This document shows, one piece after another, positions 8,531 to 63,042 of a stretch of DNA of 64,000 nt. The translations under genes and the position numbers were made by a program. Below the pieces are notes generated by a model. The model saw only the letters and a list, made by a program, of their open reading frames with translations, ran no database searches and had not been told where the DNA came from. Position 1 is the first letter of the stretch, and each line of letters starts with the position of its first letter. The stretch comes from Lachnospiraceae bacterium (GTDB lineage Bacteria > Bacillota > Clostridia > Lachnospirales > Lachnospiraceae), in contig JAFSIS010000070.1 of NCBI GenBank assembly GCA_017439665.1, forward strand, positions 186,001 through 250,000, in the 5' to 3' direction.

Positions 8531-10267
8531 ATGCTGAAGAAACTGAATTATATTTTAGACAGAAAACAAAAACAAGGACTTTTCTTTCTGGGAGTACTGT
8601 TGTTCATCAACGGTTTCCTGGAAACACTGAGCGTATCCGCGATTCTTCCGGTGGTCTCCGTTCTGCTTGATCCGGAAAAGCTGGCCGACTATACCATCGT
8701 TCAACAGGCTATGGAAAGGCTGGGAATGGAGGATCCTCTTCAGCTGATCCTTCTGCTTTTGGGCTCCCTGATCGTTATTTTTGTAGTAAAAAGTCTGTTT
8801 TCCCTCTTTGTGGTAAGGCAGCAGAGCCAATTTATTGCCATCAACCGAAATCGGATGATCAGCAGGGTTTTACGGGAATTTTTAAACCGGCCCTATGAGT
8901 TCTATCTGGACGCAGACATCCCTACGGTTTTTCGAATCACCGACAGTGATATCCCTACCGTATTCCAGCTGCTTCTGGTGTTGATTCAGCTGACCTCTGA
9001 GATCATCGTTGCGGTCTGCCTGTGTGTAGTCATCCTGGTGACCGACTGGCAGATGGCTATGAGCCTGATCGTGGTTTTCGGTGTTATCACCCTGCTGGTG
9101 ACGAAGATCTTAAAGCCCCGTTTGAACAAACTGGGTAGGAAGAATCAGGATATCCAGTCCAGAATTGCCAAATGGCGGATTCAGGCCATCTACGGAATAA
9201 AGGATGTAAAGGTTCTCCACAGGGAAGAATTCTTTGCTTATAATTATGAAAACACAGGAAAATATGGAGCAAAGCTGTCCCAGCGTTATTCCGTATTGAA
9301 TAATATCCCAAGGCTTCTGATTGAGACCGTATTTATGGTATTTTTGCTGGGATATATTATGATCTATGTGATGCAGGGAAAAGATATCAGCAATCTGATC
9401 AGTGTTCTGGCTGTTTTCGGTGTGGCGGCTATCCGTCTGCTGCCCTCGGCCAACAGGATCAATACCTATCTGACAGAGGTTGCCTATGCTGAGCCCTGTC
9501 TGAATTACCTCTATGAAAATCTTCACTTGAATGTGGAGATGATGAAGATAAATCCCATGCTGCGGGATAAGAAAGAGAAGAAGCTTGAACTTAGGGATAA
9601 GATTGAGCTGAAAGGGATCACCTATGCCTATCCCCACACGGAAAAGAAGATCTTCGATCAGGCAGATATGGTCATTCCTTATTCCAAATCCGTGGGAATT
9701 ATGGGAAGCTCCGGTGCCGGAAAGTCTACCATAGTGGACATTCTGCTGGGACTTCTGACCCTCTACGGAGGTACCATTACCTGTGACGGAGTGAACGTAT
9801 TTGAACACTACGAATCCTGGCTTGCCCAGATCGGTTATATTCCCCAGGCAATCTATCTGATCGACGAATCCATCAGAAGGAATATTGCTTTTGGTATTGC
9901 CGATGAAGAGATCGATGATGAACGGATCTGGGAGGTATTAAAGGAAGCACAGCTAAAGGAGTTCGTAGAATCCCTGCCTGAGGGCCTGGACACTACTATT
10001 GGTGACAGGGGAATCCGTATTTCCGGCGGACAGAGACAGAGGATCGGTATTGCCAGGGCTCTCTATCACAACCCTGAAATTCTGGTCTTTGATGAAGCTA
10101 CCTCTGCTCTGGATAATGAAACGGAAAAAGCGGTTATGGAAGCGATCAACAGCTTCCATGGAAGAAAGACCATGGTGATCATTGCCCATCGTTTAAATAC
10201 CATTGCAGGCTGTGACTATATTTATAAAGTGGAAAATCAGAAGATTGTCCCTGCGACCATAGATTAA
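8531..10267 (+). CDS. ABC transporter ATP-binding protein/permease (PglK-type lipid-linked oligosaccharide flippase)
   Basis: 578 residues in the half-transporter layout: six-helix membrane domain (about 1-325) then nucleotide-binding domain. The ATPase motifs are intact: Walker A GSSGAGKST at 392-400, Q-loop region YIPQAIYLID, signature SGGQRQR from 498, Walker B ILVFDEATSALD near 518-529, and the H-loop histidine in AHRL. Size and motif spacing match the MsbA/PglK group that flips undecaprenyl-diphosphate-linked oligosaccharides outward. It is one of three related exporters in the window (others at 45468 and 58426). AAAGGAAG lies before the ATG. Moving a sugar-lipid rather than a drug or peptide is inferred from context. 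Confidence 0.92.
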   Translation: MLKKLNYILDRKQKQGLFFLGVLLFINGFLETLSVSAILPVVSVLLDPEKLADYTIVQQAMERLGMEDPLQLILLLLGSLIVIFVVKSLFSLFVVRQQSQFIAINRNRMISRVLREFLNRPYEFYLDADIPTVFRITDSDIPTVFQLLLVLIQLTSEIIVAVCLCVVILVTDWQMAMSLIVVFGVITLLVTKILKPRLNKLGRKNQDIQSRIAKWRIQAIYGIKDVKVLHREEFFAYNYENTGKYGAKLSQRYSVLNNIPRLLIETVFMVFLLGYIMIYVMQGKDISNLISVLAVFGVAAIRLLPSANRINTYLTEVAYAEPCLNYLYENLHLNVEMMKINPMLRDKKEKKLELRDKIELKGITYAYPHTEKKIFDQADMVIPYSKSVGIMGSSGAGKSTIVDILLGLLTLYGGTITCDGVNVFEHYESWLAQIGYIPQAIYLIDESIRRNIAFGIADEEIDDERIWEVLKEAQLKEFVESLPEGLDTTIGDRGIRISGGQRQRIGIARALYHNPEILVFDEATSALDNETEKAVMEAINSFHGRKTMVIIAHRLNTIAGCDYIYKVENQKIVPATID

Positions 10268-44494: not shown

Positions 44495-45444
44495 ATATTA
44501 ATAGTAAAGGTTCTGCCTTGCTTCATAAAGTTGAAGTACGTTTTCATAAACAGAATAGGCTTAACAGCAAGTATCTGATCATAAAGAGGGAATGTGGCAG
44601 TTCGCCGTTAGGCCTGTTTGCCTACTATATTACTACCCTTGGCTGGATAGAATATGCGATAAGAAATGGCATGATCCCAGTGGTTGACATGAAAAATTAT
44701 TATAATACTTTTCACCAAAAGGGAGAGGTGGGCAAGATCAATACGTGGGAGTTATTTTTTGAGCAGCCTTGCAATATCTCTCTTGAAGAAGCACTTAAAT
44801 CTAATCAGGCACGATATGTCTGGGGAGATATTCCCGAATATCAGCCTAATGAGAGTCTGGATTTTTTATATAATGATCGTATTGTTAAGTATTATCATCA
44901 GTTAGCAAAGAAATACATACGCTTTCAGCCGAATGTATTTGAGATATTAAAGAACAAAGAAGAAAAGATTCTGGGTAGAGATAAAGGTGAACGGATTCTG
45001 GGTGTGTTGGCACGGGGAACGGACTATACCTCCTTAAAACCATATTTTCACCCCATCCAGCCTGATATAGAAGCTTTATCCAAGGCTATTGATGAATACA
45101 GCAGGAGGTTTTCCTGTGGCAAAATCTATGTTGCTACAGAGGATATGGAAGTGCTGGAGAAGCTTAGTGCCATTTATGGGGAAAGGCTTTTGTATACCGA
45201 TCAGGTAAGAGTAAAAAAAGTAAGCGGTTATTTAAATCATCATAAGGAATTCAGCGAAAGGGATGCTTTCGAACGGGGGATAGAGTATCTGACTTCAATC
45301 TATCTGTTATCCAGATGTAATGGCCTTGTTGCAGGGAGAACGTCGGGAACGGTTGGGGCATGTTTGCTGGCTGAAGATTATGAATTTAAACACGTATTCT
45401 CTCTGGGAAGGTACGGGATAGAGGATATAATGCTGCAGCATTGA
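44491..45444 (+). CDS. Fucosyltransferase-like GT-B protein
   Basis: 317 residues. ECGSSPLGLFAYYITTLGW near 31-49 resembles the GDP-fucose-superfamily opening, and LGVLARGTDY (about 171-180) takes the place of the HxRRGD/HxRGTD motif of O-fucosyltransferase and NodZ-type enzymes. KIYVATEDMEVLEKL and SRCNGLVAGRTSGTVGACLL match the later donor-side blocks. Donor GDP-fucose is plausible but not proven. ATGA overlap upstream suggests coupled translation with the preceding unknown gene. Confidence 0.78.
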   Translation: MNINSKGSALLHKVEVRFHKQNRLNSKYLIIKRECGSSPLGLFAYYITTLGWIEYAIRNGMIPVVDMKNYYNTFHQKGEVGKINTWELFFEQPCNISLEEALKSNQARYVWGDIPEYQPNESLDFLYNDRIVKYYHQLAKKYIRFQPNVFEILKNKEEKILGRDKGERILGVLARGTDYTSLKPYFHPIQPDIEALSKAIDEYSRRFSCGKIYVATEDMEVLEKLSAIYGERLLYTDQVRVKKVSGYLNHHKEFSERDAFERGIEYLTSIYLLSRCNGLVAGRTSGTVGACLLAEDYEFKHVFSLGRYGIEDIMLQH

Positions 45445-45467
45445 AAGGAATAACAGGAGACCAGGGT

Positions 45468-47222
45468 TTGAAAAAATTTAAAAATTTAGTAAAACAGATA
45501 AAATTTATTTTTGATAAAAAACAAAAAATACAGCTGTTCTATCTTCTTTTGGTGATTATTTTTACCAGCTTTGTTGAGCTTTTGGGAGTAACGGCGATCA
45601 TCCCTCTGATTCAGGTAATGACCGACCCTGAGTCGATCCATTCCATTGTCTATCTGGAATGGGTATACCAGCTATTCCGTTTTGAAAATACCACCTATTT
45701 TCTCATCTTTTTGGCTGTGGTTTTAATTTTGATCTATTGGGTGAAGAATGTTCTGGTGGGAATATCCTATAATTTACAGTTCCACTTTACTTTTAGTAAT
45801 CAGAAAAAAATGGCATATAAAATGCTGGACTGTTATCTCAATCAGCCCTATTATTTTCACCTTGAACACAGCAGTTCTGATCTGATCAGAAACATTAATA
45901 CCGACATTGTTATGATGTATCAGGCTGTTCTGGCTGTGATCCAGCTCTTTGCAGAGTTATTTATGTGTACCGTTCTGGGAGTTTACCTGTTTATTAAGGA
46001 CGTTGAGATTACGTTAATCCTACTGGTATTCATGTTATCCTTTGTCATCTTTTTCATTAAAAAATTCAAGGTTTATTTACGAAAAATCGGGGAAGAAGAC
46101 AGAAAGTATGCAGCCGATATTGTAAAGTGGCTGCAGCAGTCCTTTGGTGGGTTAAAAGAAACTAAGATCATGCATCGGGAAAATTATTTTTTATCCATGT
46201 TTGAACATAATTATTCTCAGTGGGCAAATTTGGAGCAAATATATCGAAACTTGCAGGTTATTCCCAAACCGATCATGGAATCTTTATGTATAACAGCGAT
46301 TATGCTTGCCATTATCATTAAGCTGATAGGGGGTACGGATCAGAGCTATTTTATCACTACCATTTCTGCTTTCGCGGTTGCTGCCTTCAGGTTACTGCCT
46401 TCCTTTAACCGAATTGCCAACTATATCAGTGCGCTGTTGTTTAATTTCTCATCTTTTGAAGCGGTGTATAATGATTTACGACAGGTTGAGGAAATTGCGG
46501 GAAAGAATCGTGCAGAAGAAAGAGAGTGTTCACCGCTGAAGTTTAACGAGGCAATCAAAATCAAGGGTCTTTCTTATCGATATCCATCGGGAGAAGAAAA
46601 TGTTCTGGAAGAGGTGTCGTTTGAAATCCCCAAGAATAAATCCGTGGCACTGATCGGCCCTTCCGGAGCAGGAAAGACAACTCTGGCCGATCTGATTTTG
46701 GGAGCTTTAGAGCCCACATCGGGAAAAATTCTGATAGATAATGCGGATGCTTTTGAGAACCTTTTTTCCTGGCAGGCCAACGTTGGGTACATTCCTCAGA
46801 ATATCTATTTGATGGATGATTCCATAAAAAATAATATTGTGTACGGGGCAGAAAGCGAGATCGATGAAACACGATTAAATCATGCCATTGAAAGGGCACA
46901 GTTGAGAGAGCTTATCGACTCACTGGCAGATGGAGTTGAAACGTCTATAGGTGAGAGGGGAATCCGCTTGTCTGGTGGTCAACGCCAGAGAATAGGTGTA
47001 GCCCGGGCGTTATATAATGATCCTGATGTGCTGGTGCTGGATGAGGCTACCTCTGCATTGGATAATGATACAGAGCAGGCGGTAATGGATGCAATTGAGT
47101 CCCTTGCCGGAAGCAAGACATTAATTATTATTGCCCACAGACTGTCTACAATACAAAACTGTGATATTGTTTTTGAGGTTAAAGACAAAGGGGTACACCG
47201 CACCGAAGCACCGTCGAACTGA
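45468..47222 (+). CDS. ABC transporter ATP-binding protein/permease (PglK-type flippase)
   Basis: 584 residues. The start is set at TTG 45468 because AGGAGA ends seven bases before it; a TTG at 45441 has no ribosome site. The membrane domain covers about 1-330 and the ATPase motifs are intact: Walker A GPSGAGKTT 397-405, signature SGGQRQR from 502, Walker B VLVLDEATSALD and the AHRLS His loop. It is the second of three half-transporters of this type and probably exports a lipid-linked oligosaccharide as a homodimer. Confidence 0.92.
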   Translation: MKKFKNLVKQIKFIFDKKQKIQLFYLLLVIIFTSFVELLGVTAIIPLIQVMTDPESIHSIVYLEWVYQLFRFENTTYFLIFLAVVLILIYWVKNVLVGISYNLQFHFTFSNQKKMAYKMLDCYLNQPYYFHLEHSSSDLIRNINTDIVMMYQAVLAVIQLFAELFMCTVLGVYLFIKDVEITLILLVFMLSFVIFFIKKFKVYLRKIGEEDRKYAADIVKWLQQSFGGLKETKIMHRENYFLSMFEHNYSQWANLEQIYRNLQVIPKPIMESLCITAIMLAIIIKLIGGTDQSYFITTISAFAVAAFRLLPSFNRIANYISALLFNFSSFEAVYNDLRQVEEIAGKNRAEERECSPLKFNEAIKIKGLSYRYPSGEENVLEEVSFEIPKNKSVALIGPSGAGKTTLADLILGALEPTSGKILIDNADAFENLFSWQANVGYIPQNIYLMDDSIKNNIVYGAESEIDETRLNHAIERAQLRELIDSLADGVETSIGERGIRLSGGQRQRIGVARALYNDPDVLVLDEATSALDNDTEQAVMDAIESLAGSKTLIIIAHRLSTIQNCDIVFEVKDKGVHRTEAPSN

Positions 47223-51232: not shown

Positions 51233-52183
51233 ATGGACTTGATATCTGTTGTGATGAGTGTATACAATGAAAAAGAGGAATGGGTGCGTAAAAGTATTGA
51301 GTCGATATTGAGGCAGACATATGTAAATATAGAATTTATAATTATATTGGATAATCCTGTAAATACGACTTTAGCCAAAGTTATAGAGACATACCAAATG
51401 GAAGATAACCGTGTAAAATTTCTGGTAAATACTAAAAATGAGGGATTAGTTTATTCATTAAATTACGGGATTTCAGAAGCGAAAGGGAAGTATATTGCAA
51501 GAATGGATGCGGATGATTATTCATCACCGGAACGCTTAGTTAAGGAATACCAATGTATGATAGATAATCAAGTGGATTTTATAATGACGGGAGTAAATTT
51601 TCTTTACGAAGAGAGATATCAAGAGGGGACAAAATATGGGGAATTGGATAGTATAAAATTTGCAGAGTTAATGAAATATGGAAATGTTTCTGTCCATCCC
51701 ACATGGCTTTTTGATAAAGAAATTTACTATGTTTTAAAAGGCTATAGGAATATTTCATATTGTGAAGATCTGGATTTTGTGTTAAGGGCACTTCAGCATG
51801 GATATAAATGTTACCGAATGAAAGAGCATTTACTTGATTATCGCTTTAGAAATAGTGGCATATCAAAAAGTAATGCACTGGAACAGCATCTGAGGGCGAC
51901 TGCTTTACAAAAATTATATATAAAAGGCGAAGATATTGGCTCCATTAATGTAGATTATTTTATTAACATGGAGAAAGAATGTTCAAAGAGGAATAAAGAA
52001 ATATTCTCAGAAGCGGATAAGATGATGGGGGAATTAGTAGAGTATATTAATGAAAAACGAATATTTGCATGTGGAATAAATATTCTAATAGGGCTTGTAT
52101 CAAATAAATATTATAGATTACTTTTTTGTAAAAATGTTAGATTTAGATTAAAACTTGCAGCTTACACGAGGAAACAAATATGA
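51233..52183 (+). CDS. Glycosyltransferase family 2 protein
   Basis: 316 residues. SVVMSVYNEKEEWVRKSIES at the start, IILDNPVN in place of the usual DDGS motif, and ARMDADDYSSPERL near 85-98, which is typical of the GT2 subgroup with R-M-D-x-D-D and P-x-R. The subgroup adds various sugars; donor unknown. The 80 bases before it hold no clear signal and the ribosome site is weak. It overlaps the next gene as ATGA. Confidence 0.93.
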   Translation: MDLISVVMSVYNEKEEWVRKSIESILRQTYVNIEFIIILDNPVNTTLAKVIETYQMEDNRVKFLVNTKNEGLVYSLNYGISEAKGKYIARMDADDYSSPERLVKEYQCMIDNQVDFIMTGVNFLYEERYQEGTKYGELDSIKFAELMKYGNVSVHPTWLFDKEIYYVLKGYRNISYCEDLDFVLRALQHGYKCYRMKEHLLDYRFRNSGISKSNALEQHLRATALQKLYIKGEDIGSINVDYFINMEKECSKRNKEIFSEADKMMGELVEYINEKRIFACGINILIGLVSNKYYRLLFCKNVRFRLKLAAYTRKQI

Positions 52184-53022
52184 TAATAATATGTATCCAA
52201 GGTGGTCTTGGAAACCAAATGTTTCAATATGCGCTTTTTTATAAGCTTAAAACATTAGGAAAGGAAGTAGCCATAGATACCTCGTTATATAAGACGGGTG
52301 TGGAAAAACGAGAGTTTAGATTAAATATTTTTCCTAATATATATTATGAACAAGCAACTATGGAAGTATGTGATAAATTAAGAGGTAAATATGATAATTT
52401 TTTCGAGAAAGTACGAAGAAAATTTGGATTAAGAAAATATTATTTTAGAGAAGTGAGACCTGGATTCTATGATAAAATATATGGATGGAATACTATGTAT
52501 TTAGATGGTTATTGGCAATCAGAAAGATATTTTCGAGAGATCAAAAAAGATATACTGAGACAATTCGAGTTTCCACAAATGTTAGGGGAAGAAAATATTA
52601 AGATGATGAGTTGGATTGTGGGTTGTAATTCAGTTAGTGTTCACATACGACGTGGAGATTACTTGAATAATAAAAAAAGATATGGAAATATATGGGAAAA
52701 TGGATATTATGAGAAAGCAATCAAGTATATTAGAAATAAAGTTGATTCTCCAAAGTTTTTTTTCTTTTCAGATGATATTGAATGGGTAAAGCAGAACTAT
52801 AAGAATGATGATTTTATATATGTAGATAATGAGAAAGAAAATGATTATATCGATATGCAACTAATGAGTATGTGTAAAAACAATATTATTGCAAACAGCA
52901 GTTATAGCTGGTGGGGAGCTTGGTTGAACTCCAGAGAAGATAAAATTGTAGTTGCACCTGCTCAATGGAATTTAGATACTGATAATACAGATATTTTTTG
53001 TGATGAGTGGATAACCATTTAG
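52180..53022 (+). CDS. Alpha-1,2-fucosyltransferase (GT11)
   Basis: 280 residues, a compact complete GT11. QGGLGNQMFQYAL (about 6-18), HIRRGDYL at 155-162 and NSSYSWWGAWLN near 247-258 are all conserved, so the enzyme should bind GDP-fucose and make a Fuc-alpha-1,2-linkage. It is translationally coupled to the upstream GT2 (ATGA) and lies 15 bases before a GT6 gene. This order suggests it makes the H-type Fuc-alpha-1,2-Gal acceptor that bacterial GT6 enzymes use (inference). The gene is very AT-rich. Confidence 0.95.
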   Translation: MIIICIQGGLGNQMFQYALFYKLKTLGKEVAIDTSLYKTGVEKREFRLNIFPNIYYEQATMEVCDKLRGKYDNFFEKVRRKFGLRKYYFREVRPGFYDKIYGWNTMYLDGYWQSERYFREIKKDILRQFEFPQMLGEENIKMMSWIVGCNSVSVHIRRGDYLNNKKRYGNIWENGYYEKAIKYIRNKVDSPKFFFFSDDIEWVKQNYKNDDFIYVDNEKENDYIDMQLMSMCKNNIIANSSYSWWGAWLNSREDKIVVAPAQWNLDTDNTDIFCDEWITI

Positions 53023-53037
53023 GACTTATGGAGAATA

Positions 53038-53916
53038 ATGAAAATAGCAATATTATATATAGCAATAGGGCAGTATACAGTATTTTTTGATTCCTTTTTT
53101 CGGAGCTGTCAAAAATTTTTTATGCCTGATTCTGAAAAGATGTACTTTGTTTTTTCAGACAAAGAGGATGAAAGCTTTACGCATGAGAATGTAAAGGTTT
53201 ATAAAGTAGAAGATATGGGATGGCCGGATAATACATTGAAAAGATTTCATATGTTTACTTCTATAGAAGAAGAATTATGTGAATATAGTTATTGTTTCTT
53301 TTTTAATGCGAATTTAGAATTCAAAGAGAAGGTTGTAGAAAAAATTCTGCCAAAACAGGGGATAGTAGTTGTACAACACCCTGGATATTATAATAAGCAT
53401 ATCAAAACTTTTCCATATGATCATAATCCAGAGAGTTTGGCCTATATTCCTCAAGGGAGAGGAAAAGTTTATGTATGTGGTGGTGTGAATGGTGGATGTA
53501 CAAAAGAATATCTTGATATGTGTAAGGTTTTAAAGGAACGAGTGGATTTGGATTATCAGAATGGAGTTATTGCTCGTTGGCATGATGAATCCCATCTCAA
53601 TCGGTTTATCTTTGATTTAAAAGGAGAAAAATATGTAATCTGGCATCCGGGGTTTTGTTATCCGGATTTTTACCGTATGCCCTTCCCAGATATCTGTCAT
53701 TTGAAAGATAAAAATTATTATATAGATGTTCCTATTCAGAAAAAAGAAAAATTGCCGCTAATATTAAAGCTATATCTTAACTTTTTCTCCAAACAAAATT
53801 TTAAAAATTTGAGAATTCGATATTTTAAAAAAAGATATTTTGAGCTAAAACAAGAGGGGAAAGATTTAGGATATTTTCCGGATAAGGCCGCACGATGTGC
53901 AGATAAAAAGAGGTGA
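53038..53916 (+). CDS. Glycosyltransferase family 6 protein (ABO/alpha-1,3-GalT family)
   Basis: 292 residues. The diagnostic GT6 block WHDESHLNRF starts at W181, virtually the same as in mammalian ABO and alpha-1,3-galactosyltransferases. VCGGVNGGCTKEYL near 145-158 corresponds to the GGFFGG acceptor loop. The metal site DxD of the animal enzymes is replaced by NAN at 90-92, as known for bacterial GT6 proteins, which work without metal. Members add Gal or GalNAc alpha-1,3, the bacterial ones preferring Fuc-alpha-1,2-Gal acceptors. TGGAGA precedes the ATG. Gal or GalNAc specificity cannot be decided by eye. Confidence 0.93.
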   Translation: MKIAILYIAIGQYTVFFDSFFRSCQKFFMPDSEKMYFVFSDKEDESFTHENVKVYKVEDMGWPDNTLKRFHMFTSIEEELCEYSYCFFFNANLEFKEKVVEKILPKQGIVVVQHPGYYNKHIKTFPYDHNPESLAYIPQGRGKVYVCGGVNGGCTKEYLDMCKVLKERVDLDYQNGVIARWHDESHLNRFIFDLKGEKYVIWHPGFCYPDFYRMPFPDICHLKDKNYYIDVPIQKKEKLPLILKLYLNFFSKQNFKNLRIRYFKKRYFELKQEGKDLGYFPDKAARCADKKR

Positions 53917-53919
53917 AAA

Positions 53920-54930
53920 GTGGATCTAATATCAGTTATAGTGCCTGTTTATAATATCGATAAATACATTCGACGCTGTGTTGAGTCAATAGTAAAGCAG
54001 ACCTATCAGAACCTTCAGATTATATTGGTAGATGATGGATCGACTGATCAGTCGGGAAAGATATGTGATGAGCTGGCCAGATGTGATACTAGGATTATGG
54101 TAATTCATCAAAAAAATAATGGAGCATCAGGAGCAAGAAATGCTGGAATTTTGCACGCAGAAGGGAGATATATAGGATTTGTTGATGGTGATGACTATAT
54201 TGAAAAAGAGATGTATGAATGCCTGTATAGTGCTGCTATAGCGCATAAAGCAGACATAGCCTCCTGTGGTTATTATGAGGAAACGGGTGATCAAATTGAA
54301 ATAATGTGCTGTTCTGCATCTACAATAGCTTTAAAAAAAGAAGAGGCATATCGTGCATTATTTGAAAGAAAATCATCTATTGGATGTTCTTGCTGTAATA
54401 AGCTGTTTGATAGGACACTATTTGAGAAAGAAATATTTACTGTTGGGATACAGGGAGAAGATATTGAATTATTATATCGAATTTTACACCATATAAAGAG
54501 GGTTGTATGTGTAAATACAGTAGGGTATCATTATGCCCATAGAGAAGGAAGTACAACTACATGCCCATTCAATATTCGTTATATGGATGTTGTCAATATC
54601 AGCGAAAAAATCATACAGTTTATAAGGGATAATTACCCAGAATTATTATTGGAAGCATATGCTTATCAGTTACCGTGGATTATAGGCGGAATAATAGGAA
54701 TAAACGAATCACCGGAAAGAAAAAAGTATAGTAAAGAAAAAAAATATCTTGCCAGAATAATCAGAAAAAGATTAAAAATTTATTTTAAATGCAGGAATAT
54801 CTATCTTGGAAGCTGGATTATGTTGTGGGGAGCAGTATTAAACATTTCCTTGCCAGTTCAAAAGTGTTTGAATATAGGGGTTAAGGTATACCAAAATACG
54901 TTAAAAAAGTTAATCATAAAGAAAGTGTGA
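53920..54930 (+). CDS. Glycosyltransferase family 2 protein
   Basis: 336 residues from GTG with GAGGTG upstream. SVIVPVYNIDKYIRRCVES, VDDGSTDQSG and FVDGDDYIE near 87-95 form a complete GT2 catalytic core. The C-terminal half is helical and basic with one possible membrane-touching segment near 290. It follows the GT6 gene by 3 bases and overlaps the next as GTGA, so it belongs to the same assembly set. Confidence 0.94.
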   Translation: MDLISVIVPVYNIDKYIRRCVESIVKQTYQNLQIILVDDGSTDQSGKICDELARCDTRIMVIHQKNNGASGARNAGILHAEGRYIGFVDGDDYIEKEMYECLYSAAIAHKADIASCGYYEETGDQIEIMCCSASTIALKKEEAYRALFERKSSIGCSCCNKLFDRTLFEKEIFTVGIQGEDIELLYRILHHIKRVVCVNTVGYHYAHREGSTTTCPFNIRYMDVVNISEKIIQFIRDNYPELLLEAYAYQLPWIIGGIIGINESPERKKYSKEKKYLARIIRKRLKIYFKCRNIYLGSWIMLWGAVLNISLPVQKCLNIGVKVYQNTLKKLIIKKV

Positions 54931-56306
54931 AGCAATTGAAGGTACACGATTTTATATTGGTCTATGAGCATAAAATTAGAGAACTTGAAAGCTTGTGTTT
55001 GCTGAAAATGGAGCTTGAGAAGAGAGGGTATTCTGTTCTTATTAAATGTTTGCATGCCCAGGAGATTTATTTTACTCAAAATCGGATCTGTAAGCCGAAA
55101 TATTTTGCTAAAGTTTTGGGTGTTTTTGCAGGTTACGATACATATACCTTGAGGATATGTGTGCAAAACTGTATTGCTTTTGATAAGATAATCAATTTGC
55201 AATGGGAGCAGATGATTTCCAGAGAACAGGAGGAGAAAGACAGTTTTCAGACTCCTAAGGAATTGGCAAAAGAGATCGTTCATCTGTCATGGGGAGAGCG
55301 AAATGTTGAGCGACTGGTTAATGTTGCCCAGATTGACAGGAAAAAGGTGATAAAATGTGGGAATATATCCCTCGATATGTTAAAAGAGGAATTTGGTGCC
55401 TACTATTTAAGCAGGGATGCAATATGTGAACAATATGGTTTTTCAAAAGAGAAAAAAATCTGTACTCTTTTTGCCAGTTTTGGCTTCACTAATTATACAG
55501 AAGAAGAACTGGAAATCGTGCGAAAAAGAATGGGTGATGAGAAGGTGAAAATGGTTGAAAATGCCACTATAGCTCAAAAAGAGGTGTTGAATTGGTTAAA
55601 AAAAGCAGCAGCTAAGTATCCTGAGTATATTTTTATTTATCGTCCACATCCTGGTGAGAGACTTCCCACTGTATTGAAAGAAATGGAAGAGTTACTCAAT
55701 TTTTATGTTATCAGTGACTATTCCTCCAAACAGTGGATTTTTGTCAGTGATTTTATGTTTTCCTGGCATAGTACAGTAATCGTAGAAGCATTCCTCGCAG
55801 GCAAAACATGCTATTCTCTGGAGCCGGTTTCTTACATCAGGTCCCAGGACTGTGTTGTATTTGAGGGAATGCGGCCAATTGAAGATTATGATACCGTTGA
55901 AAAAATATTGTCGGGTGAAGTAATAGATAATTGTTTGAATGCAGAACTTGTATATCAGTATTTTGGTGACAAGGATGAACGATACAGTTTTGAAAAGGTG
56001 GCAGATGCTTTTGAAAAGGTGTACCATGAAGAATTTTATTCCTTAAAGGATATAGTTAGCCACTATGATTTATATACTAAAGTCTATAAGACGATAAAGG
56101 AACGAATATGGGCAAATCCTATTATAAATAGTATCTATTGGTTATATGTAGACTTTTTTTCAAGATATGATTTTTTACAAAAGCGAAGCCTGTCTTCGCA
56201 GGTATATGCTAAGTATAAGATAATCAAAGAAACTGAAGTGGCATCAGAGGAAGAAATAGAAAAAATACAGGACAAGTTCTCAAAGATATTAAAAGGTAAA
56301 AAATAA
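54927..56306 (+). CDS. Surface carbohydrate biosynthesis protein, GT-B-like
   Basis: 459 residues from GTG overlapping the previous stop. VHDFILVYEHKIRELESLCL at the start, ERNVERLVNVAQ, VIKCGNISLDMLKEEFG (about 141-155), FIYRPHPGE near 234-242 and FMFSWHSTVIVEAFLAGKTC near 275-294 describe a GT-B protein of the surface-carbohydrate group often found next to nonulosonate genes; CDP-glycerol transferase-like proteins share the RPHP block. As the legionaminate module starts at the next gene, it may transfer the nonulosonic acid (inference). Confidence 0.75.
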   Translation: MKQLKVHDFILVYEHKIRELESLCLLKMELEKRGYSVLIKCLHAQEIYFTQNRICKPKYFAKVLGVFAGYDTYTLRICVQNCIAFDKIINLQWEQMISREQEEKDSFQTPKELAKEIVHLSWGERNVERLVNVAQIDRKKVIKCGNISLDMLKEEFGAYYLSRDAICEQYGFSKEKKICTLFASFGFTNYTEEELEIVRKRMGDEKVKMVENATIAQKEVLNWLKKAAAKYPEYIFIYRPHPGERLPTVLKEMEELLNFYVISDYSSKQWIFVSDFMFSWHSTVIVEAFLAGKTCYSLEPVSYIRSQDCVVFEGMRPIEDYDTVEKILSGEVIDNCLNAELVYQYFGDKDERYSFEKVADAFEKVYHEEFYSLKDIVSHYDLYTKVYKTIKERIWANPIINSIYWLYVDFFSRYDFLQKRSLSSQVYAKYKIIKETEVASEEEIEKIQDKFSKILKGKK

Positions 56307-56307
56307 G

Positions 56308-57288
56308 ATGAAAAAAATATTAGTCACCGGTTCAGATGGGTTTATCGGAAGCCATTTGACTGAAGAATTAGTAAAAGCAGGATATAAAGTAAAGGCATTC
56401 GTATATTATAATTCCTTTAATACTTGGGGATGGCTGGATAGTCTTCCCAAAGAAACAATGGAATCTGTGGAAGTGTTTCAGGGGGATGTCCGGGATCCAT
56501 ATGGTGTAAAAGAAGCTATGAAAGGCTGTGATGCTGTATCCCATTTGGCAGCATTGATTGCGATACCATTTAGCTACCATTCACCGGATGCATATGTAGA
56601 TACCAATATTAAGGGAACTCTGAACATATTGCAGGCTGCAAGGGAACTGGATATCAGCCGTGTTCTCATAACATCTACATCAGAGGTGTACGGAACAGCA
56701 CAGTATGTTCCTATTGATGAAAAGCATCCCTTTCAGGGGCAGTCACCATATTCAGCAACTAAAATAGGAGCAGACAGACTGGCAGAATCTTTTTACCGCT
56801 CCTTTAATCTGCCGGTTACAATTGTCCGGCCTTTTAATACCTATGGCCCCAGACAATCAGCGCGAGCTGTTATCCCTACAATTATTATGCAGCTTCTCAG
56901 TGGAAAGGAAGAAATTCAGCTGGGCTCATTGACCCCTACGAGGGATTTTAATTATGTAAAAGATACAGCCAGAGGATTTATTGAGATATATAAAAGTCAG
57001 AGCACCATTGGGGAAGAAATCAATATTGCTACCGGCCAAGAAATTTCCATTGGAAAATTAGCAGAAGAATTAATTGCGCAGATTAATCCAAAGGCGAAAA
57101 TTATCTGTGATGAACAGAGGCTACGTCCGGAAAAAAGTGAAGTCAACCGTTTACTCGGATGCAATAAAAAAATTACAAATCTGACAGATTGGAAACCTCA
57201 GTATACGTTTGAACAGGGGGTGGCTGAGACAATAGCGTTTTTAAAAGAAAATTTATCTAAATACAAAACAGATATATATAATTTATAG
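56308..57288 (+). CDS. legB: NAD-dependent 4,6-dehydratase (LegB-like, SDR family)
   Basis: 326 residues. Extended SDR fold: GSDGFIG at 8-14 binds NAD, the catalytic Y148-x3-K152 is in PYSATK, and TSTSEVYG supplies Ser/Thr and Glu of the dehydratase subtype. RPFNTYGPRQSARAVIP near 169-185 is characteristic of LegB/PseB-neighbouring dehydratases. It would convert GDP- or UDP-GlcNAc to the 4-keto-6-deoxy sugar, the first committed step to legionaminic acid. The PtmE homologue right after it favours the GDP route. The sequence does not rule out a related UDP-sugar dehydratase. Confidence 0.87.
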   Translation: MKKILVTGSDGFIGSHLTEELVKAGYKVKAFVYYNSFNTWGWLDSLPKETMESVEVFQGDVRDPYGVKEAMKGCDAVSHLAALIAIPFSYHSPDAYVDTNIKGTLNILQAARELDISRVLITSTSEVYGTAQYVPIDEKHPFQGQSPYSATKIGADRLAESFYRSFNLPVTIVRPFNTYGPRQSARAVIPTIIMQLLSGKEEIQLGSLTPTRDFNYVKDTARGFIEIYKSQSTIGEEINIATGQEISIGKLAEELIAQINPKAKIICDEQRLRPEKSEVNRLLGCNKKITNLTDWKPQYTFEQGVAETIAFLKENLSKYKTDIYNL

Positions 57289-57337
57289 ATAGTATAATTT
57301 TGATTTTGAAAGCGAAAATTGTCAGGGGATAAAGTAA

Positions 57338-58381
57338 ATGAAGCTGGATAAATACTGTGTTACTTCGGAAGTATCTATTCTGGAGGCAATGAAAAAAATA
57401 AATAATAATGCCAAAGGTATTATTTACATTACGGAAAAGGGTAAGGCCATTGGCGTTGTTACGGATGGGGATATCAGAAGATATATTTTATCTAAAGGGG
57501 ATTTGGAGAATAGTATCCATGTAATTATGAATAAATCTTTCATATGGCTTCCAAGGGGAAAAGAAGAATCTGCTCAAGCCACCATGGTGGAAAAAGGAAT
57601 ATCCTCTTTACCTGTTTTAGATGAAAATCATCAAATCATTAGATTATACTTTAGAAATGAGCGGGTTAAAGAAGAGAAGAGTAAGTTAAATATTCCTGTA
57701 GTTATTATGGCAGGAGGAGAGGGAACACGCTTACATCCATATACACAGATACTACCTAAGCCGCTTATCCCTATAGGGAACAGTACTATTACTGAGCATA
57801 TTATGGAAAGATTTTCCGAGTATGGTTGTAATGACTTTACCATGATCGTTAATTATAAGAAAAATTTTATCAAGTCATATTTTTTGGATTATGATTGCAA
57901 GTATAATGTCAGCTTTGTAGATGAAGAAAAGTTTTTGGGGACGGGTGGAGGTTTAAAGCTTTTAGAACTAAAGTATGGCTCTACCTTTTTTATGACCAAT
58001 TGTGATATTCTTGTTGAAGGCGATTATTCTCAAATTTTGGATTATCATAAGAAGAATAATAACCTGATCACTATGGTATGTGCGGTGAAAAATGTAATGA
58101 TTCCCTATGGAACGGTGGAGGTGAACGAAGAAGGAAAGGTAACAGGATTAAAGGAAAAACCTAAAATGTCTTTTATTACCAATACAGGGATGTATGTTTT
58201 AGAACCGGAATTTATTCATCGGATACCGGAGAATACTTTTATCCATATTACAGACTTAATTCAACAATGCATTGATGAGGGAGAGAATGTAGGTGTTTAT
58301 AAAATTGATGAAGAAAACTGGATGGATATGGGGCAACTGGAAGAGCTTGAAAAAATGAAACGAAAATTAAATGTAGAGTGA
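57338..58381 (+). CDS. ptmE: CBS-domain nucleotidyltransferase (PtmE-like, GDP-GlcN synthesis)
   Basis: 347 residues. Two CBS motifs fill about 1-115 (GVVTDGDIRRYIL near 41-53, SSLPVLDENHQIIRLY near 89-104). A sugar nucleotidyltransferase domain follows from about 120: VIMAGGEGTRLHPYTQILPK, then FLGTGGGLKLLE, then MTNCDILVEGDY. This order matches PtmE/LegX, which joins GlcN-1-phosphate to GTP for the GDP-based legionaminic acid route of Campylobacter. CAGGGG precedes the ATG. The CBS pair may sense nucleotides. Confidence 0.9.
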   Translation: MKLDKYCVTSEVSILEAMKKINNNAKGIIYITEKGKAIGVVTDGDIRRYILSKGDLENSIHVIMNKSFIWLPRGKEESAQATMVEKGISSLPVLDENHQIIRLYFRNERVKEEKSKLNIPVVIMAGGEGTRLHPYTQILPKPLIPIGNSTITEHIMERFSEYGCNDFTMIVNYKKNFIKSYFLDYDCKYNVSFVDEEKFLGTGGGLKLLELKYGSTFFMTNCDILVEGDYSQILDYHKKNNNLITMVCAVKNVMIPYGTVEVNEEGKVTGLKEKPKMSFITNTGMYVLEPEFIHRIPENTFIHITDLIQQCIDEGENVGVYKIDEENWMDMGQLEELEKMKRKLNVE

Positions 58382-58425
58382 TATATAAATAAGAAAATTG
58401 GCTGATATAAATATAGGAGTTAATT

Positions 58426-60204
58426 ATGCAACAGATTGAAAAGTTTTCAGTGCTCTGGAATAAATTTCAGACAATACTCTCTACCTCACAAAAAAAATGG
58501 GGAATAGTTATTTTTCTCATGTCGATTATGGGCGCTATAGTGGAAACATTAGGAGTGTCAGTAATCCTCCCTTTGGTGCAGGTTATGCTGGATCCGAATC
58601 AACTTTTGGAGATTCCTGTTATTAAAGAAATATTTTATTTTACAGGAGTTTCTGATACAAATCAAATGATGATAGTAGTAGCAATAGCAGTTATAATGGT
58701 GTACATTATTAAAAATATCTATATGGCCATACTATCTTATGCACGTGCAAGATACTCCACTAAGGTTCAGCGGGAATTATCAATTCGAATGATGCATTCT
58801 TATATTAAAAGAGGGTATCCATTCTTCAGGGTAAATAATACAGCCACTCTGCTCCGGGGAAGTAATGGGGCGATGGTAGGTGTTTATAGTGTAATCTATA
58901 ATTTTATGCGGATAGTTGCTGAAGCACTTACAATGTTATGTATATTAATATTTATCGTATATACAGATTGGAAGATGGCTGTCAGTATGATTGGTTTGGT
59001 TGGTCTGTGCCTGTTGATCATTTTATTTTTTTTCAAGGGAATTATGCAAAAAGAGGGAGAAAAATATCATTTCTATACGAAGCTGGTACACCAGTGGTCA
59101 TTGCAGCTTTTTTCTGGAATCAAAGAAGTATTGGTTTTGAAAAGAGAGGATTTTTTTGTTAAGAATTATGAAAAGGCATATGCGAATCAACAGAATGCTC
59201 AGATAAAACAGACTGTGGCAGCAGAAACACCTGCATATATTATTGAAGGAACATGCATTGTAGGAATCATTATAGCAGTTTGTATACGCGTGGGGGGAAT
59301 GGAAACACCTGCAGAATATTTTCCACAACTAGCTTCTTTTGCAGTAGCTGCATTTCGGCTCCTTCCTTCTATCGGCAGAGTGTCGTCATATTTTAATGGA
59401 TGTATATTTTATCTTCCAGCAGTAGAAGAAGTGTATGAAAATATTGTAGAGGCTCAGAAGTATGAGGCGGATAATACAATTAAAAAGATAGATGAGGGAG
59501 CAGATATAAATAATCTCTCTTTTGAAAAAGAAATAAAGATTCAGAATATTGTCTGGAAATACCCGGATGGAAAAGAAAATGTTTTGGATCATATTTCGTT
59601 AACAATAAAAAAAGGAGAATCTGTTGCTTTTGTAGGTTCATCCGGTTCAGGAAAGAGTACATTAGCGGATATCATCCTGGGGCTATTTTTGCCTCAGGAA
59701 GGGGAGATATTGATTGATGGGATCAATGTAGTCAATAATCGTAGGGTTCTCTCAAGAATAATCAGCTTTGTGCCTCAAAATGTTTATTTGATCGATGATA
59801 CCATTCGTCGAAATATTGCTTTTGGTATTGAGGACACGGAAATTATGGAAGAAGCTGTGTGGTCGGCCTTGGAGCAAGCACAGATGAAAAGCTTTGTTGA
59901 GGGGCTTCCAGATGGAGTGGATACAATTGTAGGGGAGCGGGGAGTACGATTTTCAGGTGGACAGACACAGCGTCTGGCTATTGCAAGAGCACTTTATACC
60001 AATCCGGATATTTTGGTTCTTGATGAAGCTACATCAGCACTGGATGCAGAAACAGAAACTGCTGTAATGGAAGCGATTGAAGAAATGCAGGGGCAAAAAA
60101 CACTTATTATAATTGCACACAGGCTATCAACAATAAGAAACTGTGACTGCATATATGAGATAGCAGGTGGTAAGATTATCAGGCGGCAATACGAGGAGCT
60201 GTAA
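58426..60204 (+). CDS. ABC transporter ATP-binding protein/permease (PglK-type flippase)
   Basis: 592 residues, the third exporter of this type. Membrane domain about 1-340. Walker A GSSGSGKST at 404-412, signature SGGQTQR from 510, Walker B ILVLDEATSALD and His loop AHRLS are intact. It interrupts the nonulosonate genes between ptmE and neuD and may flip the oligosaccharide that carries this sugar. GGAG lies before the ATG. It is clearly diverged from the other two, so it was not recently duplicated in place. Confidence 0.92.
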   Translation: MQQIEKFSVLWNKFQTILSTSQKKWGIVIFLMSIMGAIVETLGVSVILPLVQVMLDPNQLLEIPVIKEIFYFTGVSDTNQMMIVVAIAVIMVYIIKNIYMAILSYARARYSTKVQRELSIRMMHSYIKRGYPFFRVNNTATLLRGSNGAMVGVYSVIYNFMRIVAEALTMLCILIFIVYTDWKMAVSMIGLVGLCLLIILFFFKGIMQKEGEKYHFYTKLVHQWSLQLFSGIKEVLVLKREDFFVKNYEKAYANQQNAQIKQTVAAETPAYIIEGTCIVGIIIAVCIRVGGMETPAEYFPQLASFAVAAFRLLPSIGRVSSYFNGCIFYLPAVEEVYENIVEAQKYEADNTIKKIDEGADINNLSFEKEIKIQNIVWKYPDGKENVLDHISLTIKKGESVAFVGSSGSGKSTLADIILGLFLPQEGEILIDGINVVNNRRVLSRIISFVPQNVYLIDDTIRRNIAFGIEDTEIMEEAVWSALEQAQMKSFVEGLPDGVDTIVGERGVRFSGGQTQRLAIARALYTNPDILVLDEATSALDAETETAVMEAIEEMQGQKTLIIIAHRLSTIRNCDCIYEIAGGKIIRRQYEEL

Positions 60205-60267
60205 ATAGAAATAATGCTAGAATAACTAAGAAAGAGCATGGAGTGTGTTAAAAATTACACGTAACAT

Positions 60268-60885
60268 ATGGAAAAAATTATTATTTTAGGTATGGGTGGA
60301 CATGCCAAAAGTGTGGCAGATACAATTGAGCGCCAAAGTCTTTATGAGATATATGGATTTGTGGTAAACGAAAAGCTAGCTGATATTGAGCAATATCATT
60401 ATCCTGTGGTAGGGAGTGATGGTGACCTGCAAAAATTGTTCATGAATGGAATAAAGCATGTTGCTATGGGAATAGGTTTTTTGGGAAAAAGTAGGCTAAG
60501 AGAAAGACTGTATTTGCAGTTAAGAGAAATCGGATATTCTTTTCCCATAATTTGTGATCCGTCGGCAATAGTATCCCGATGTACGAGTATTGGTGAAGGG
60601 ACTTTTATCGGTAAAGGGGCAATTGTAAATGTATCAGCTCAAATTGGGAAGATGTGTATTCTTAATGCAGGTGCAATTATCGAGCATGACTGCCATGTAG
60701 GAGATTTTTCCCATGTCTCGGTAGGAACTGTCCTTTGTGGTGAAGTGAAGATAGGGAAAGAATCCTTTATTGGTGCAAATGCCACAGTAATTCAGGGAAG
60801 AAGGATAGGGGACAGCTGTATTGTAGGTGCTGGGGCAACAGTCAGAAAAGATATAGTAGAAAGTAGAACATTTATATATGAGTAA
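60268..60885 (+). CDS. neuD: Sugar O/N-acetyltransferase, NeuD family
   Basis: 205 residues. An N-terminal Rossmann-like strand with IILGMGGHAKSVADTI (about 4-19) binds substrate, and a hexapeptide beta-helix (about 90-195) contains IEHDCHVGDFSHV, with the catalytic His near 130, and SFIGANATVIQG. NeuD/PglD-type enzymes acetylate the amino group of a 4-amino sugar or O-acetylate sialic acid. In the legionaminic route the LegH step acetylates the 4-amino group, which would fit. No clear ribosome site precedes the ATG. The end overlaps neuB by 8 bases. Confidence 0.9.
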   Translation: MEKIIILGMGGHAKSVADTIERQSLYEIYGFVVNEKLADIEQYHYPVVGSDGDLQKLFMNGIKHVAMGIGFLGKSRLRERLYLQLREIGYSFPIICDPSAIVSRCTSIGEGTFIGKGAIVNVSAQIGKMCILNAGAIIEHDCHVGDFSHVSVGTVLCGEVKIGKESFIGANATVIQGRRIGDSCIVGAGATVRKDIVESRTFIYE

Positions 60886-61876
60886 TGTATTTATTATTGC
60901 AGAGGCGGGAGTAAATCATAATGGAGATTTAGACACAGCAAAGAAGCTTATCGATGCAGCTGCCTGTGCTGGGGTAGATGCAGTAAAATTTCAAACCTTC
61001 AGAGCAGATAGCCTGGTATCAGAAGATGCTCAAAAAGCAGATTATCAAATAGCTGCTACCAATAATACAGAAACTCAATATCAAATGCTCAAAAAGCTGG
61101 AATTATCAGAGACGATGCATAATATCTTAAAGGAATATTGTGCGCAAAAAGGGATACTATTCTTATCTACACCGTTTGATCTGGAAAGCATTGATTATCT
61201 AAATCAATTAGGTCTTCCCCTTATGAAGGTTCCTTCCGGAGAAATAACCAATTATCCGTATTTAAAAAAAATAGGACAAACTGGAAAGCCTGTAATCCTA
61301 TCGACTGGAATGGCAACGCTGGAAGAAGTAAAAGCTGCAGTAAAGGTTTTATGGGATAATGGAAGCAGGGAAATTACGGTATTGCATTGTAATACGGAAT
61401 ATCCGACACCTGTGCAGGATGTAAATCTTAAGGCGATGGATATTTTAAGACAAGAGCTGGGGGTTAAAGTTGGATATTCCGACCATACATTGGGAATCGA
61501 AATTCCTATTGCGGCAGTAGCCATGGGTGCAGTAGTTATTGAAAAACATTTTACTTTAAGCAGAAACTTAGAAGGGCCGGATCATAAGGCCAGTTTGGAG
61601 CCGCTGGAGCTTAAAGAGATGGTTGAAGCGATCCGTAATGTAGAAAAAGCATTTGGAACAGGGAAAAAAGTGCCTTCTGAGTCTGAAAAGAAAAATATTG
61701 AGGTTGCACGAAAGAGTATTGTAGCCAAAAGGGATATTGAAGAAGGCGAGATATTTTCAGAAGAAAATTTGACAGCTAAACGTCCGGGAAATGGGATATC
61801 ACCAATGCGCTGGGAGAATATTATCGGGAAAAAGGCAAGAAGAAGCTTTAGAAAAGATGAGTTGATCGAGGAATGA
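60878..61876 (+). CDS. neuB: N-acetylneuraminate/N,N'-diacetyllegionaminate synthase
   Basis: 332 residues. The TIM-barrel domain (about 1-260) has FIIAEAGVNHNGDLDTAKK and VDAVKFQTF, then LMKVPSGEITNYPYL, LSTGMATLEEV, LHCNTEYPTP and GYSDHTLGIE, all NeuB landmarks. The C-terminal SAF (antifreeze-like) domain covers about 275-332 with RKSIVAKRDIEEGE and NIIGKKARR. It condenses phosphoenolpyruvate with a 6-carbon amino sugar to the nine-carbon acid. With LegB and PtmE homologues nearby, legionaminic acid (LegI role) is more likely than sialic acid. The start overlaps neuD by 8 bases. Confidence 0.94.
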   Translation: MSNVFIIAEAGVNHNGDLDTAKKLIDAAACAGVDAVKFQTFRADSLVSEDAQKADYQIAATNNTETQYQMLKKLELSETMHNILKEYCAQKGILFLSTPFDLESIDYLNQLGLPLMKVPSGEITNYPYLKKIGQTGKPVILSTGMATLEEVKAAVKVLWDNGSREITVLHCNTEYPTPVQDVNLKAMDILRQELGVKVGYSDHTLGIEIPIAAVAMGAVVIEKHFTLSRNLEGPDHKASLEPLELKEMVEAIRNVEKAFGTGKKVPSESEKKNIEVARKSIVAKRDIEEGEIFSEENLTAKRPGNGISPMRWENIIGKKARRSFRKDELIEE

Positions 61877-63042
61877 AAAAAATATGTGTGGTAACTGCAA
61901 CCAGAGCTGAATATGGTCTTTTAAGGCCTGTGATTGATAAGCTGGCTTCTTCAGAAGATATAGAGCTTCAACTGGTTGTTACAGGTATGCATCTGTCACC
62001 GGAGTTTGGATTGACATACCGGGAGATAGAGGAAGATGGATATCCTATAAGAAAAAAAATAGAAATGTTGTTAAGTTCAGATACAGAACCAGCAATAACA
62101 AAATCCATGGCAGTTGCCCTTATGGGATTTGCGGATTTTTTTGCAGATGACAGACCGGATATAGTGGTGATTCTTGGTGATCGATATGAAATGCTGATGA
62201 CAGCCACTGCTGCGATGATCGCAAAAATTCCTATTGCGCATATCCATGGTGGAGAATTAACTGAGGGAGCATATGATGATGCTATACGCCATTCTATTAC
62301 AAAAATGAGTCAGCTTCACTTTGCCTCTACAGAAGAATATCAAAGGCGTATTATTCAGTTAGGTGAGTGCCCGGAGAGAGTTTTCAATGTAGGTGCATTA
62401 GGAGTAGAGAGTATTAAAAAAATAAAGTTATTATCAAAGGAAGAACTGGAAAAAAATTTGAATTTTTCAATTCAAGATAATACTTTTGTAGTTACCTACC
62501 ATCCTGTTACCTTGGAAACTTTTTCTTCCGAAGTACAATTTAGTAATTTATTGCAGGTAATAGACCGTCATCAGGAATGGAAGGTTATTTTCACCAAGGC
62601 AAATGCTGATACTGATGGAAGAATTATCAATCGGATGATTGATGAATATGTAGGCAAGCATAATGAGAGATGCATTGCTTTTTCTTCATTAGGACAGCTT
62701 CGATATCTGAGTGTGTTGCAATACTGCAGTGCGGTCGTGGGAAATTCTTCCAGTGGGATTATTGAGGTGCCATCCTTTCATATTCCAACAATCAATATTG
62801 GAAACAGACAACAGGGAAGGATTACCGGAGGATCAGTAATTCACTGTGGATATGAAAGCAGTGAAATTGAAGAAGCTATAAATAAAGCACTGTCATCAGA
62901 ATTCATGGAGATGATTAAAGGATATATGAATCCCTATGAAGGAATAAACACAAGTGAAAAGATTGTAGGGAAGATTAAAGAAGTATTGGCTAAAGGAATA
63001 GATACAAAAAAGAAATTTTACGATATAAAAGTTTCGAATTAA
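61873..63042 (+). CDS. neuC: UDP/GDP-N-acetylglucosamine 2-epimerase (hydrolysing), NeuC/LegG
   Basis: 389 residues. VVTATRAEYGLLRPVIDKL at 5-23, LGDRYEMLMTATAAMI near 102-117, HIHGGELTEGAYDDAIRHSI and VGNSSSGIIEVPSF with INIGNRQQGR are diagnostic of the hydrolysing 2-epimerases (GT-B fold). The enzyme removes the nucleotide and epimerises C2, giving the substrate of NeuB. NeuC acts on UDP-GlcNAc and LegG on the diacetamido sugar; neighbours favour LegG. It overlaps neuB as ATGA. Confidence 0.94.
   Translation: MKKICVVTATRAEYGLLRPVIDKLASSEDIELQLVVTGMHLSPEFGLTYREIEEDGYPIRKKIEMLLSSDTEPAITKSMAVALMGFADFFADDRPDIVVILGDRYEMLMTATAAMIAKIPIAHIHGGELTEGAYDDAIRHSITKMSQLHFASTEEYQRRIIQLGECPERVFNVGALGVESIKKIKLLSKEELEKNLNFSIQDNTFVVTYHPVTLETFSSEVQFSNLLQVIDRHQEWKVIFTKANADTDGRIINRMIDEYVGKHNERCIAFSSLGQLRYLSVLQYCSAVVGNSSSGIIEVPSFHIPTINIGNRQQGRITGGSVIHCGYESSEIEEAINKALSSEFMEMIKGYMNPYEGINTSEKIVGKIKEVLAKGIDTKKKFYDIKVSN

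Follow-up and report, generated by a model that had tools for sequence, protein, structure and literature searches.

What does a fucosyltransferase-like gene placed directly before a relative of the human ABO enzymes do in a Clostridia-type genome, and is imitation of a host the reason for its presence? For natural anti-A and anti-B antibodies, one source that has been proposed is bacteria with ABO-like sugars. In 2014, the bacterial members of glycosyltransferase family GT6 were stated to come from Gram-negative bacteria, with one exception (PMC3961637). The window analyzed here, that is, the whole stretch of 64,000 nucleotides from a Lachnospiraceae bacterium, consists almost entirely of glycan-synthesis genes and encodes four GT11-like proteins, including the one that precedes GT6. 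A preliminary description of this DNA proposed that the GT11-GT6 pair builds an H antigen followed by an A- or B-type cap, as a form of host mimicry. The relevant features of the locus are as follows.

51233..52183, + strand: upstream GT2 gene, overlapping the GT11 start (PF00535)
52180..53022, + strand: GT11 gene, putative alpha-1,2-fucosyltransferase, 280 aa (PF01531, E=1.1e-33)
52201..52218, + strand: GGLGNQ motif of GT11, residues 8-13 (alignment of GT6-linked GT11s)
52642..52662, + strand: HIRRGDY motif of GT11, residues 155-161 (H155, R157 and D160 invariant)
53038..53916, + strand: GT6 gene, putative metal-independent alpha-1,3-GalNAc (or Gal) transferase, 292 aa (PF03414, NF041524)
53305..53313, + strand: NAN of GT6, residues 90-92, replacing DXD (aligned with BoGT6a N95-A96-N97)
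53476..53484, + strand: GT6 donor pocket C147-G148-G149 (corresponding to human GTA L266-G267-G268 and BoGT6a A155-G156-G157)
53578..53601, + strand: WHDESHLN of GT6, residues 181-188 (E184 equivalent to BoGT6a E192 and human E303)
53920..54930, + strand: GT2 gene directly 3' of GT6, same operon-like run (PF00535)
54927..56306, + strand: surface-carbohydrate transferase-like protein, same run (TIGR04396 surf_polysacc, above cut-off)
56308..63042, + strand: nonulosonic-acid genes, legionaminic-acid type, same run (TIGR04180 (LegB), TIGR03570, TIGR03569 and TIGR03568, all above cut-off)

The claim that a complete GT11 gene lies 15 bases (53023-53037) ahead of a GT6 gene carrying both NAN and WHDESHLN is borne out by the coordinates, the Pfam matches and the motifs alike. 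The GT11 start codon shares ATGA (52180-52183) with the stop of the preceding GT2 gene and only 3 bases separate the GT6 stop from the next GT2 gene, so that the four genes are arranged as in an operon, in a run that continues downstream into the legionaminic-acid-type genes (legB, a nucleotidyltransferase, an ABC exporter, a neuD-like gene, neuB and neuC). A promoter scan gave scores no better than those of shuffled sequence. The protein encoded at 54927-56306, for which no Pfam match was found, is a candidate nonulosonic-acid transferase, given its TIGR04396 match and its place beside the legionaminic-acid-type genes.

Several other features of this contig are recorded here in their own right. 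Of the three further GT11-like genes in the window, two score above the Pfam cut-off, and one open reading frame (ORF), at 6574-8448, joins GT2 and GT11 domains in a protein of 624 aa. ABC exporters of the same build occur four times (window 8531-10267, 45441-47222 and 58426-60204, and L008:12089-13840; two were checked with Pfam), and their spacing gives the look of several glycan modules in series. Far upstream on the same contig, additional nonulosonic-acid-like genes were recognized by eye (L008:6083-8511 and L008:8838-9533), coding for a NeuB-type synthase, a PseG-like protein and a cytidylyltransferase.

The assignment of the second protein of the pair to GT6 follows from its scores against PF03414 (E=2.9e-28, 99 bits, cut-off 25) and NCBIfam NF041524 (261.5 bits, cut-off 250). 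Among solved structures it matches best BoGT6a, a metal-independent synthase of the A antigen from Bacteroides ovatus (4ayj, E=4.2e-56, 39-40% identity; human GTA, E=7e-26), on which its AlphaFold model (pLDDT 88.8) superimposes with an rmsd of 1.5-1.6 A. The alignment and the model contain the GT-A fold and the catalytic WHDE with a glutamate at the nucleophile position, and the entire WHDESHLN block is identical to that of human GTA. Both features of the metal-independent type, N90-A91-N92 and the C-terminal lysine K225, are present in the alignment, and we accordingly describe the protein as a putative metal-independent GT6 of the BoGT6a type.

Positions 235, 266 and 268 are among those that distinguish the human A enzyme from the B enzyme, and the letters of the window GT6 at these positions are G, C and G. 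An alpha-3-GalNAc transferase has been proposed to need glycine at 266 or 268 (PMC4692239), and G149 occupies the position of 268. The BoGT6a residues that contact UDP-GalNAc or its products have been reported (PMC3961637); their counterparts Y13, W62, N65, T66, R69, N90, H114, E184 and K225 are kept in the window protein, and I10 and P126 differ from T10 and T134 of BoGT6a, proline being the commonest letter at the latter position in the GT6 set. Because BoGT6a is the closest solved relative, most of the UDP-GalNAc contacts are kept and glycine is found at 268, GalNAc (A-type) is more likely to be the donor than Gal, in a comparison drawn against BoGT6a and the human enzymes.

The first protein of the pair matches PF01531 over nearly the full length of the profile (positions 36-297 of 298, 117 bits, cut-off 23.9) and contains GGLGNQ, HIRRGDY (with the HxRRxD pattern) and NSSYSWWGAWL. 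GGLGNQ is nearly invariant to invariant across 22 GT6-linked GT11 proteins, and HIRRGDY is the motif that binds GDP-fucose in this superfamily. A single-protein sequence search found no solved relative of this GT11, and its AF2 model (pLDDT 92) gave plant FUT1, POFUT1 and FUT8 as best matches, at low TM-scores. We take WbgN, too, to be a GT11 member. Belonging to GT11 does not by itself settle the linkage: HhFT2, a GT11 enzyme, is an alpha-1,3-fucosyltransferase (PMC4202792), and WbgN transfers colitose (PMC12723683).

The genome encodes a supply of donor sugars. On contig C75, gmd (548 bits) lies beside the GDP-fucose synthase gene fcl (499.7 bits, cut-off 500), together with a GMP/PMI-type gene. 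A galE gene scores above its cut-off, and a TviC-like UDP-sugar C4-epimerase, under its family cut-off, is encoded upstream on the same contig as the pair.

GT6 is rare in the relatives of this bacterium, with matches above the cut-off in three of the 397 genomes sampled from the family and, among the 145 nearest relatives, in the window's own genome alone. GT11 was detected in 46 of 299 genomes sampled. The GC content is 30-31% at 51-54 kb, compared with 39-50% across the first 36 kb. Given the rarity of GT6 in the family and the drop in GC around the pair, the GT11-GT6 module appears to have been acquired horizontally.

We then asked how general the association between the two families is. 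GT6 was searched for in 84,980 species genomes and the 80 best of the 209 relatives that were confirmed served as loci, so that the fractions given here describe close relatives of the window GT6; neighbors were taken from called ORFs, and GT11 was detected with an iterated profile. GT6 was called in 76 of the 80 loci, some of which end near GT6, an effect that can only hide GT11 neighbors. In these 76 loci, GT11 is fused to GT6 in six cases; in another 30 it lies on the same strand at a distance of up to 300 bases, and in five it is on the opposite strand. With the window and a few further loci added, grouping at 70% identity left 68 non-redundant clusters, in 36 of which GT11 is fused to GT6 or no more than 300 bases from it. 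GT11 occupies 30 of 131 positions immediately adjacent to GT6 (+-1) but, farther out (+-3 to +-6), seven of 333 (p=4e-12, Fisher test), and is found in none of 30 control loci of the same family anchored on GT8, versus 48 of the 76 GT6 loci over a comparable span. About half of the GT6 loci have no GT11 nearby. The pairs span nine bacterial phyla, and the adjacency occurs in either gene order. The GT11-GT6 pairing is not a matter of chance.

Mapped onto the GT6 tree, pairing shows at least 20 changes of state. The nearest neighbor in the GT6 tree agrees with that in the GT11 tree in 15 of 40 cases (shuffled mean 1.1), indicating that neighboring GT6 and GT11 genes tend to travel together; no correlation was found between whole-tree distances (Mantel r 0.07, Spearman -0.01). 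Six single-ORF fusions, which the GT6 tree traces to three or more events, include both domain orders, GT6-GT11 (L017:6001-7629, L022:2098-3738, L028:5650-7590, L086:4083-5552 and L095:1226-2803) and GT11-GT6 (L058:3870-5363). These proteins, from planctomycetes, Hoeflea, Magasanikbacteria and Gastranaerophilales, are possible single-chain ABO-type synthases; the one from L017 has 543 aa. No report of a systematic GT6-GT11 link was found in the openly readable literature.

Relatives of the GT2 encoded at 51233, whose best PDB match is named GalT1, occur three genes or fewer from GT6 in 22 of 75 GT6 loci; of 25 relatives, 23 lie that close, in a region where other GT2s crowd too. The evidence for GT2, GT11 and GT6 as a three-gene cassette is thus only suggestive. 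One E. coli site matched by this GT2 (H30), which has no annotation, was left out of the comparison.

The association extends to viruses. GT6 is also present in 16 of 80 virus-derived GT11 loci, many with overlaps of about a dozen bases, and the isolated Synechococcus phages B23, Bellamy and DSL-LC02 encode GT11 and then GT6 in overlapping genes (cyanophage and virus-derived overlaps: L256, L258, L259; L137, L144, L157, L172, L176, L177, L183, L187). Since nearly all of the phage and viral GT6 proteins carry DXD, not NXN, pairing with GT11 spans both forms of the enzyme. In ACG-2014f (L257), gmd and an epimerase gene are located close to the GT11/GT6 region.

In our view, the pair is probably a two-step module for a surface polysaccharide, or another lipid-linked glycan, which would make Fuc-alpha1,2-Gal and then cap it with alpha-1,3-linked GalNAc or Gal. 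This reading starts from the observed families, active sites, non-random pairing, fusions and donor genes, from which we infer the linkages, the donor, the acceptor, the order of action and the place in the polymer. A beta-galactose acceptor, possibly put in place by the GT2 encoded at 51233, would receive L-fucose from GDP-fucose in alpha-1,2 linkage through GT11; on the resulting Fuc-alpha1,2-Gal, GT6 would then, with no need of a metal ion, attach GalNAc (more likely) or Gal in alpha-1,3 linkage, and the product would be an A-like (or B-like) trisaccharide branch of the repeating unit. Ordered synthesis of H and then the cap is the best reading because of the pairing and the known specificities of BoGT6a, WbnI and BgtA (PMC3961637, PMC4202792). 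The earlier suggestion that a GT6 of this kind uses Fuc-alpha1,2-Gal agrees with the acceptors for which its relative BoGT6a is known (PMC3961637).

Other readings differ in what they leave of this scheme. That the two genes merely met by chance in a sugar-rich locus, nearly all of it devoted to glycan synthesis and with four GT11-like genes, is barely credible in view of the positional enrichment (p=4e-12), the fusions in at least three events and the phage pairs. It is quite unlikely that GT6 acts on unfucosylated galactose, forming a linear alpha-1,3 link, with GT11 working on another residue and only the locus being shared. Mammalian alpha3GT, itself a GT6, does use unfucosylated Gal, and the window offers three other GT11-like genes; yet GT11 clusters in the positions next to GT6 (+-1) and occurs fused with it, and the GT8-anchored loci lack GT11. 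The change of specificity within GT11 seen in HhFT2, the transfer of colitose by WbgN and the lack of a solved relative in the single-protein search would fit a GT11 that is an alpha-1,3-fucosyl or other GDP-6-deoxysugar transferase and so yields a different branched trisaccharide. We consider this improbable, given that BoGT6a acts on Fuc-alpha1,2-Gal, that a near relative of BoGT6a has a GT11 neighbor and that gmd and fcl are present in the genome.

Host mimicry, that is, a true A or B antigen on the cell that imitates vertebrate mucosal glycans, draws on the enzyme families and the motif common to human ABO and on the legionaminic-acid-type (sialic-acid-like) genes in the same run. The pair is, however, not limited to host-associated lineages: it is found in planctomycetes, Patescibacteria, Chlorobaculum and the phages of free-living marine and lake cyanobacteria, in which no vertebrate is available as a model, so that mimicry is not needed as an explanation and seems to us unlikely. 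The two-enzyme route of the preliminary description gains from the adjacency across phyla, the fusions and the kinship with BoGT6a, and mimicry as its explanation gains no support. Under the preferred two-step reading, the role of the module would most simply be diversification of surface glycans, with any mimicry of a host a by-product.

Of more interest than the single locus in the window are the fusions and how widely the two families are paired. Whether GT11-GT6, often with GT2, is a mobile ABO-determinant cassette of many phyla and cyanophages, existing in metal-independent, metal-dependent and bifunctional fusion forms, is in our judgment evenly balanced. If it is, ABO-type glycans would be widespread as surface structures of microbes, and the human antigens only one example of them. 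The Clostridia-type member, the GT11 pairing and the fusions argue against imitation of vertebrates as the main reason for ABO-type glycans and provide concrete enzymes for gauging how far such glycans have spread.

Among known systems, the window GT6 most resembles BoGT6a (PDB 4AYJ, 4AYL, 4CJ8; PMC3961637), with which it shares the NXN and WHDES motifs, the equivalents of K231 and R73, the glycine at 268 and the fold; it differs in having C at 266 (A in BoGT6a), in its Bacillota-type genome and in a C-terminus that is predicted, with low confidence, to be longer and helical (residues 231-292). The nearest named relative of BoGT6a, from Bacteroides sp. GM023 (L093:6001-6789), has an opposite-strand GT11 gene at a distance of 29 bases. 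In Escherichia coli O86, WbwK (GT11) and WbnI (GT6) belong to the same two families and build H first and an ABO determinant second, although there the product is a blood-group-B O-antigen, WbnI transfers Gal, and both host and locus are different (PMC4202792); a distant DNA search for WbnI gave no match. BgtA of Helicobacter mustelae, a blood-group-A synthase likened here by its description, is a GT6 acting on Fuc-alpha1,2-Gal in a Gram-negative bacterium (PMC4202792). Human GTA and GTB share with the window GT6 the WHDESHLN block, glycine at GTA positions 235 and 268 and the GT-A fold, but are membrane-anchored Golgi proteins with DXD and metal dependence and about 26% identity to it. The cyanophage pairs likewise have GT11 and then GT6, in genes that overlap, and differ in DXD for NXN and in a QGC donor pocket. 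The window pair is a new, Gram-positive and apparently horizontally acquired member of these already known GT11/GT6 systems.
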